Source: an uncultured Dehalococcoidia bacterium (GTDB taxonomy: Bacteria > Chloroflexota > Dehalococcoidia > Lucifugimonadales > UBA3495). Taken from it: DNA of 64,000 bases. The position numbers and the translations under genes are program-made. The notes under the pieces were generated by a model. The model saw nothing but the letters and a program-made list of their open reading frames with translations, was not told the DNA's origin and made no database searches. Below, piece after piece: positions 34,427-44,002 of the stretch (within the stretch, counting starts at the first letter, position 1; each line of letters begins with the position of its first letter). Where the stretch lies: positions 1,857,158 to 1,921,157 of the forward strand of contig OX638345.1 in NCBI GenBank assembly GCA_951813535.1. Reading direction: 5' to 3'.

Positions 34427-34885
34427 TCAGGGCGCCAACGCGGATAGCGGGGAAACCGGTACGTTGCGCATGGCCCAAAACGCAAGGACTACCGCCAGGG
34501 TCGCCCATGCCGCGTGATGCGAAACGCGCAAGGCAGGGATCGGTCGCCTACCAACCGCGTGGGCCAGACCGTGACAATAAGCGGCGCCCAGGAAGGGCAA
34601 CAGCGCGATGGTCAGGGCGTTGTATCCAAGCGCGCCGCTCAGATCGCCATGCAGCAGGCTGTGCAATGCCCGCAGCGTTCCGCACCCGGGGCAATAGCAA
34701 CCGGTGACGAAGAGGAAAAGGCACGGCGGGTAATTCCCCGGCGTCCGCGGGTCTACTGCATACACCAGGGCGAGCCCGCAGCCGGCCAGCACCGCCGGCG
34801 CGAGCCATGCCGCGAAGGTCGCGGTCTGGCGCGCCAGGAGATGCGGCCTCGGGCGTGACCGGGGGTTGGCGGATTCAGAAACCAA
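34427..34885 (-). CDS. DUF2752 membrane protein
   Basis: About 152 residues with three or four membrane helices carry the DUF2752 signature CYCPGCGTLRALHSLLHGD, then ALGYNALTIALLPFL. The function of the family is unknown. No ATG fits. The TTG at 34885, overlapping the end of the CD225-like gene by 11 bases, is the simplest start, while the longer frame runs antisense-free but without homology to 35065. The pairing with a CD225-like gene recurs in many bacteria as far as I recall. Confidence 0.75.
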   Translation of the reverse strand: MVSESANPRSRPRPHLLARQTATFAAWLAPAVLAGCGLALVYAVDPRTPGNYPPCLFLFVTGCYCPGCGTLRALHSLLHGDLSGALGYNALTIALLPFLGAAYCHGLAHAVGRRPIPALRVSHHAAWATLAVVLAFWAMRNVPVSPLSALAP

Positions 34886-35141
34886 GTATGGCGGTCCCAA
34901 TACCGAGAAGCAGGAATAACAAGGCGTATATCGCGAGAACGGCCAGGCCCAGCCCGAAGGATATCCAGATGCAGATGCGCGCGGTGCGGGCCGCGGATTC
35001 CGCTCCGGCATAATCCCCGGAGCCTTCACGGGACATGCCAATGGCCGCAAACACGATCGCCACAATTCCCAGCGGAAGACAACAAAAAACGGTGACCACG
35101 ATAGCGAGTATCAGGTTGAGGGTGTGGTTCGATCCGGACAC
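34875..35141 (-). CDS. CD225/dispanin-like or DUF4190-like small membrane protein
   Basis: The 88 residues contain two hydrophobic helices. The first is LNLILAIVVTVFCCLPLGIV with an AIVFAAIGMSREGSGDYAGA loop. The second begins ARICIWISFGLGLAVL. The CCLPLGIVAIVFA and loop pattern is that of CD225/dispanin proteins, which in animals include the IFITM antiviral factors. The GTG at 35141 lies five bases after GGAGG and is preferred; a GTG at 35159 is in frame. It overlaps the DUF2752 gene. Confidence 0.72.
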   Translation of the reverse strand: MSGSNHTLNLILAIVVTVFCCLPLGIVAIVFAAIGMSREGSGDYAGAESAARTARICIWISFGLGLAVLAIYALLFLLLGIGTAILGF

Positions 35142-35193
35142 CTTGTCCTCCACGCACACATCGGAATGGGCGCGATTGTACCATCGCCGGGAA

Positions 35194-36659: not shown

Positions 36660-36679
36660 GGGAGGCCGCTCGGCCTCCC
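36660..36679. terminator. Hairpin between convergent genes
   Basis: GGGAGGCC and GGCCTCCC pair around GCTC. The flanking bases are AAAAG on the left and a T-rich stretch on the right. It may terminate both the MmgE/PrpD transcript and the convergent GIY-YIG gene. Confidence 0.6.
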
Positions 36680-36708: not shown

Positions 36709-37485
36709 CTACCGTAGGCCCCTGCTCACTTTTTGGAAAGAGGATTGGAAGTAAAGCCCGGTATCCCGCAACTCTTTGGACCCATCGCCTCCGCGCATGT
36801 TCAGTCTAGGCATGAGCCCTTCGATCAGCATAGCTTCGATCACGTTTATGACGTCAACTAAATTCCCACCATCCGGTGCAGGAAGTAAATCCCCGTTGTC
36901 CGCCACTGGTCTGAACCCGAACCAAGAAAAAGCGTCCCATCGGTCTGATTTCCTACGATCATTATGGTGGTATCGTAATCTGGCGTACAGACCTGATTTT
37001 CCGCGTTCGGTCCGGGTCTGGCCGATATAAGCTATCTCACTCCCCTTGTGAAGCAGGTAGATACCATCTTGGTCGGCGAAATTGACTGGTCGCGATTGAT
37101 CGTACTGCTGACCCCAAATTTGTCCATTGGTGGGTCCCCAGTCAACTTGGCCTCTATCCCAATACAAGCCGTATGCTTTTACGGTGAAGCGTTCCGGGTT
37201 CGCCGCCGCATCTTCTGCTGCGGTTTCTTCGGCGACTTGGGCTTCTTCAGCACGCTGTGCCGTTTCCGGTAGCGCGTAATGACCCCGTGAAGTATTTTGC
37301 ACTTCACCGGCCTGTACCAAAGAATTCAGTTCGCGGTTGACCGTTTGGGAGGGAGTAGCACCTGAAAGTTGTCGCAGTCCTTGCTCGCCGACTAGGCGAG
37401 TGATTTCGTTGTAGTGAAGAAGTTCGTCCGCCTCTCGCAACACGTGCAGGATAGCTTCTCGCCAGCTCAGGTCTTGCGTCGTCAT
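36709..37485 (-). CDS. HARE-HTH / GIY-YIG domain protein, putative nuclease
   Basis: The 258 residues fall in three parts. Residues 5-73 resemble a HARE-HTH winged helix (SWREAILHVLREADELLHYN, then TPSQTVNRELNSL). An acidic Ala/Glu linker spans 75-95. A C-terminal GIY-YIG-like domain has GIY at 141-143, YIG at 153-155, Arg169/Arg171 after GLYARL, and Glu217 as the likely metal ligand in NVIEAMLIEG. HARE-HTH modules are known with restriction and DNA-modification systems, so a DNA-sensing nuclease is plausible (inference). Base composition is lower in GC than in the flanking genes, pointing to transfer. I chose the ATG at 37485; an in-frame start 13 codons earlier lacks homology. No partner genes are adjacent. 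Confidence 0.72.
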   Translation of the reverse strand: MTTQDLSWREAILHVLREADELLHYNEITRLVGEQGLRQLSGATPSQTVNRELNSLVQAGEVQNTSRGHYALPETAQRAEEAQVAEETAAEDAAANPERFTVKAYGLYWDRGQVDWGPTNGQIWGQQYDQSRPVNFADQDGIYLLHKGSEIAYIGQTRTERGKSGLYARLRYHHNDRRKSDRWDAFSWFGFRPVADNGDLLPAPDGGNLVDVINVIEAMLIEGLMPRLNMRGGDGSKELRDTGLYFQSSFQKVSRGLR

Positions 37486-37550
37486 TGAACCCCCCGATCG
37501 ATTGTCTGTACGTGGCTCCGCCAACCGCTTTGAAAAAATTCACGTGCTCA

Positions 37551-40837: not shown

Positions 40838-43823
<2,986 letters not shown>

Positions 43824-43927: not shown

Positions 43928-44002
43928 CGCGGGGTGGAGCAGTGGCAGCTCGTCGGGCTCATAACCCGAAGGTCGTTGGTTCGAGTCCAACCCCCGCTAC
44001 CA
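43928..44002 (+). tRNA. Initiator tRNA-Met (CAT)
   Basis: A 75-base cloverleaf with anticodon CAT in CTCATAA. Initiator features are visible: C1 cannot pair with base 72 (T), the anticodon stem has three G:C pairs (GGG/CCC), and the start CGCGGGGTGGAGCAG is that of bacterial tRNA-fMet. CCA is encoded. It is 104 bases after 23S and probably co-transcribed. Confidence 0.95.

Follow-up and report, generated by a model that had tools for sequence, protein, structure and literature searches.

A gene that joins a HARE-HTH winged helix to a GIY-YIG nuclease domain, standing among metabolic genes in an uncultured Dehalococcoidia bacterium, raises the question of whether its product attacks modified DNA, cuts unmodified DNA as a restriction enzyme would, or serves some other purpose. 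The gene lies in a stretch of 64,000 nucleotides, here called the window. It occupies positions 36709..37485 on the minus strand (P0001; ATG at 37485, stop at 36709) and encodes 258 amino acids. An earlier sequence-only reading had reported this open reading frame, which is indeed present, and had left its strand unstated. A Shine-Dalgarno-like GGGGGG run (37490..37495, minus strand) precedes the ATG by 4 bases and is, from its sequence, a plausible ribosome-binding site, and a terminator-like hairpin (36660..36679, minus strand) follows the gene. The description of the gene as isolated holds in part: no methylase or defence gene was found among the neighbours checked, but an ammonium transporter gene on the same strand ends only 65 bp upstream, and read-through into the fusion gene is therefore possible.

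Besides this transporter, the neighbouring genes encode a MOSC protein, MmgE/PrpD, an enoyl-CoA hydratase and NIPSNAP, all metabolic. The fusion gene has a GC content of 53.3% and a GC3 of 53%, against a GC3 of 71-84% in eight other window genes and 73-84% in the metabolic neighbours, which bears out the lower GC noted earlier; such a low GC3 among high-GC3 metabolic genes makes the gene look foreign, and its composition is consistent with horizontal acquisition. Apart from the inverted repeat of the terminator-like hairpin, the only repeat around it is a 27-nt internal pair (78%), thus leaving no insertion footprint, and no intron, terminase or integrase was found among the window neighbours checked. 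The window also contains a gene for a small membrane protein of the CD225/dispanin family (34875-35159, minus strand) and a complete 23S rRNA gene (40839-43823, plus strand), followed by tRNA-Met (43928-44002, plus strand). Neither a 16S nor a 5S rRNA gene was found in the 64 kb, and the 23S gene represents an unlinked rRNA gene arrangement.

The HARE-HTH domain, which is also present in human ASXL proteins, occupies residues 4-78 of the fusion protein (37252..37476, minus strand). Its presence, proposed from sequence, was confirmed by a Pfam match to PF05066 above the cut-off (residues 7-51, E 1.3e-7, 32.4 versus 25.9 bits) and by a winged-helix model. The match is partial, covering profile positions 2-46 of 71, and three fused homologues match PF05066 over nearly its full length. 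In an AlphaFold2 model of the full-length protein, built with four sequences, residues 1-80 form a winged helix with block-mean pLDDT mostly of 70-92, and residues 4-74 superimpose on the globular domain of histone H5 (Z 9.9, 68 residues, rmsd 2.0). Compared with the other fusions, the stretch ahead of the wing lacks 4 residues. The second and third helices are joined in the model by a loop at residues 35-44; an extra helix inserted in the HTH is given as a HARE-HTH trait in PMC11037411. A variable Ala/Glu-rich linker, poorly conserved among the fused homologues, follows at residues 79-100 (37186..37251, minus strand).

The C-terminal half (residues 101-247; 36745..37185, minus strand) begins with a family-specific GLxW...W segment. 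The window protein alone had no GIY-YIG match in Pfam or NCBIfam, and the case for a divergent GIY-YIG domain is made by its homologues. A homologue on a Solidesulfovibrio plasmid (P0002) exceeds the Pfam threshold for PF05066 and also that for PF01541 (28.0 versus 22.6 bits for the latter). An alignment of the window protein with 11 homologues from chromosomes, plasmids and phages places the GIY motif at G141-I142-Y143 (37057..37065) and the YIG motif at Y153-I154-G155 (37021..37029), both on the minus strand like the residues that follow. Y143, Y153, His173 (36967..36969), the predicted metal-binding Glu217 (36835..36837) and Asn229 (36799..36801) are identical in all 12 sequences. The predicted catalytic Arg169 (36979..36981) is kept in 11 of the 12, the exception being the fusion L002 from a Myxococcota metagenome-assembled genome. 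The arginine and glutamate singled out by the sequence-only reading thus persist across the family.

Compared with solved structures, the 12-sequence profile matched Eco29kI best (E 0.007), followed by UvrC (E 0.03). The modelled core consists of strands at residues 142-147, 150-156 and 185-194 and helices at 166-175 and 209-223, the last helix at low confidence, and this predicted order is the beta-beta-alpha-beta-alpha of GIY-YIG domains; the fold whose absence the earlier reading would have counted as a refutation is thus predicted to be present. A domain-only model also gave the expected core (pTM 0.58). Its structural comparison ranked mostly GIY-YIG entries high, with a modest Z for each: 2lwf, a GIY-YIG-like glutaredoxin domain (Z 5.6), UvrC 1yd6 (Z 3.9), T4 EndoII 2wsh (Z 3.8, 91 residues, rmsd 4.7), Hpy188I (Z 2.9) and Eco29kI (Z 2.4). 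It is the agreement among these entries that supports the fold. Foldseek returned nothing at E below 0.001 for the full model and weak matches for the domain model, with UvrC first. Taken together, homologue motifs and predicted fold support a divergent GIY-YIG domain. A below-cut-off Pfam match to Peptidase_S78 was rejected, and short weak PADLOC matches, to AbiEi over about 35-60 winged-helix residues and to PDC-S14 over about 50 residues of the GIY-YIG region, were not taken as membership.

Four fused copies were found in total. In addition to the window gene, the fusion occurs in the Myxococcota genome of L002, in a second genome of Myxococcota (G691, L044) and on the 8.9-kb plasmid pDMC2 of Solidesulfovibrio magneticus (L004, WP_012749578), where it is annotated only as an HTH domain-containing protein. 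These homologues share 32-36% identity with the window protein. Sampling of 294 genomes of the host class and 400 of the host phylum gave no further full-length fusion, and the phage and viral collections searched did not yield the fused form. Many genomes of the host phylum do carry HARE-HTH in other proteins, often in ones which, from their translations judged by eye, resemble Mrr-type nucleases, and this form is much commoner there than the GIY-YIG fusion; most of what the first profile matched in the host phylum was the HARE-HTH part of some other protein. Weak GIY-YIG matches that did not resemble full members (L062-L067, L073-L079) were left out of the counts, and the first viral match (L003), with 28 residues and no family open reading frame at the site, was attributed to chance. 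Three similar proteins among the weak matches (L075, L078 and L079, from genome G970) appear by eye to have a GIY-YIG-like segment after an M23-type peptidase region. The fusion is thus real, recurrent and rare; the tree, which has long branches, did not favour either one fusion event or several (AU p 0.25).

Relatives of the nuclease half that lack HARE-HTH were identified in Synechococcus phages, in viral contigs, on the Methylorubrum extorquens AM1 megaplasmid and in further genomes reached via L002. One Synechococcus phage homologue is annotated as endonuclease II, and two phage members (L040:5995-6537 and L006:3007-3501) adjoin terminase or portal genes, surroundings that are a frequent site of free-standing packaging-linked or homing nucleases. 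Given these neighbours, the nuclease family may have had an origin other than a restriction enzyme. Another relative (L094:6627-7187) immediately precedes hsdM, hsdS and a RhuM-family gene and may be an added nuclease of this type I restriction locus. The megaplasmid relative (L005:4995-5516), at a site with no listed gene, is convergent with an Eco57I-like methylase gene; upstream of it is a gene that seems to encode DNA polymerase IV.

The distribution of methylase genes differs between the two forms. The earlier remark that no methylase adjoins the window gene stood for the neighbours checked, and the same was found around all four fused copies (window, L002, L004 and G691/L048), whereas two relatives lacking HARE-HTH, L094 and L005, have methylase neighbours. 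These numbers are small, four fusions giving weak statistics, and the contrast fits a reader domain that would replace the need for a methylase partner. The survey of homologue neighbourhoods for defence genes, which the earlier reading had proposed, was only partly rewarded. Immediately downstream of the L002 fusion come an ImmA/IrrE-like gene and a DUF4411 PIN gene, which together resemble a toxin-antitoxin pair; no defence-like context was found at the other fused copies, that of G691 lying among glycosyltransferase genes.

The explanation preferred here, to which about an even probability is given, is that the protein is a single-chain modification-dependent (type IV-like) DNA endonuclease acting in defence against foreign DNA, with activity and substrate inferred by analogy. 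The earlier reading had likewise suggested a stand-alone modification-dependent nuclease, a reasonable proposal that the analysis supports in part. The HARE-HTH winged helix would bind marked double-stranded DNA, the mark being most likely a hypermodified phage base or a modified cytosine, while the variable linker would hold the GIY-YIG domain, predicted to cut nearby DNA with one bound metal ion. From established GIY-YIG enzymology, Y143 would activate water, R169 would contact the phosphate and E217 would hold the metal. Two copies would be expected to act together to make a double-strand break and to cut outside the bound site, as Ahi29725I does (N1-23). By type IV logic, an enzyme attacking modified rather than unmodified DNA would need no methylase partner. 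Binding of DNA by HARE-HTH, dependence on modification, cleavage and the defensive role are all presumed properties of the protein.

The presence of both domains, the conserved catalytic set, the recurrence of the fusion, its foreign base composition and the lack of an adjacent methylase all support this defence-nuclease reading, as do published winged-helix-GIY-YIG and HARE-HTH-nuclease fusions, the repeated joining of HARE-HTH to what look like Mrr-type nucleases in the host phylum and the toxin-antitoxin-like neighbours of L002. Counted against it are the loss of R169 in L002, the dissimilarity of HARE-HTH to the winged helix proven to read m6A, the methylases of the host, the terminase and portal neighbours of phage relatives and PADLOC matches that are only short and weak. 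The host genome carries four C5-cytosine methylase genes (five matches, two of them in one frame), about a dozen N6/N4-methylase loci and five N6_Mtase matches; no D12/Dam-type methylase gene was found in it. With so many methylase genes, a broad 5mC or m6A reader would probably cut the host's own chromosome, a conflict that PMC11037411 discusses for winged-helix fusions too. If the enzyme is modification-dependent, a motif left unmodified in the host, or phage bases such as hydroxymethyl and glucosyl derivatives, is thus a likelier target than that of a broad methyl-reader.

The same host methylases would suit a nuclease of the restriction type, whose target would be a specific site in unmodified form, with HARE-HTH serving only for sequence recognition and a methylase encoded elsewhere protecting the genome. 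Eco29kI, the best profile match among solved structures, is a type II enzyme, and the methylase neighbours of L094 and L005 point the same way, but the lack of a methylase among the neighbours checked of all four fused copies and the expected lethality of a copy travelling alone on a small plasmid without a protecting methylase make this explanation unlikely. The plasmid copy can also be read, together with the phage relatives beside terminase or portal genes and the foreign composition of the window gene, as the mark of a selfish or phage-derived nuclease, homing-type or packaging-linked, that acquired a winged helix to bind its target and benefits itself or a mobile element instead of defending the host. 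This appears quite improbable, since the window gene sits between metabolic genes with no insertion footprint and no intron, terminase or integrase among the neighbours checked, and the viral collections yielded no fused form.

The HARE-HTH domain might instead contact a protein, with the nuclease playing a part in regulation or DNA repair. The N-terminal domain of the Firmicutes RNA polymerase delta subunit likewise belongs to PF05066, RNA polymerase would be an example of such a partner, and the family search gave matches in Bacillus subtilis and Lactococcus lactis. A rare, patchy and plasmid-borne spread is ill suited to a housekeeping role, and published HARE-HTH-nuclease fusions sit in defence contexts (PMC10853773, PMC12839542), so this alternative is considered very unlikely. 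The slightest probability is given to a decaying, inactive acquired gene: a GIY-YIG part no longer recognised by Pfam, a shortened wing and the long end branch of the window protein in the tree would agree with decay, but the frame is intact, a ribosome-binding site and a terminator are present, as judged from the sequence, and every expected catalytic residue is in place.

Returning to the defence-nuclease reading, a more specific form of it, that the fusions make up a family of defence nucleases, each encoded by a single gene, whose HARE-HTH directly reads a modified cytosine or a hypermodified base of phage DNA, is put forward tentatively, as possible but doubtful. If true, the reading function long predicted for HARE-HTH could be assayed by cleavage in a minimal system. 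In the portions of the literature searched, the binding of HARE-HTH is predicted from genome context, and a direct demonstration of what it binds was not found. With a 258-residue, seemingly partner-free fusion, the question of its target becomes a gel assay of which modified DNA is cut. Reading of modified cytosine would back the proposed role of HARE-HTH in chromatin proteins and offer a module for mapping modified DNA; otherwise, a rare architecture would still be added to the modular reader-plus-nuclease defence enzymes.

Among known systems, Eco29kI and Hpy188I, type II restriction enzymes that belong to two-gene restriction-modification systems, share the GIY-YIG catalytic core, but both lack HARE-HTH, and the fusion gene, unlike type II systems, has no cognate methylase among the adjacent genes checked. 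Phage T4 endonuclease II, which serves the degradation of host DNA, and similar phage GIY-YIG nucleases have a related fold; the T4 enzyme is likewise without HARE-HTH. Closer parallels are the winged-helix-GIY-YIG fusions, described in PMC11037411 as methyl-dependent type IV enzymes and including Ahi29725I and Apa233I. These small proteins also combine a winged-helix reader and a GIY-YIG nuclease, and most of them have no methylase linked to them. By analogy, the window fusion probably works as these enzymes do. Compared by domain architecture, they differ in that their winged helix senses m6A in GATC, whereas the window protein carries HARE-HTH (PF05066), which the same paper distinguishes from the proven m6A-reading winged helix and suspects of sensing cytosine modifications (PMC11037411). 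HARE-HTH-REase fusions, predicted in PMC10853773 to discriminate modified DNA, likewise place HARE-HTH as presumed reader on a nuclease, but the nuclease is of the PD-(D/E)XK rather than the GIY-YIG type (PMC10853773, PMC12839542). EVE-GIY-YIG and GIY-YIG-RAMA fusions also couple a predicted modified-DNA reader to a GIY-YIG nuclease, with other reader domains (PMC7641849, PMC11037411). Within the literature passages found that name both domains, no HARE-HTH-GIY-YIG fusion is described. The fusion is not a new kind of system; it belongs to an already known reader-plus-nuclease type, with HARE-HTH as the reader.
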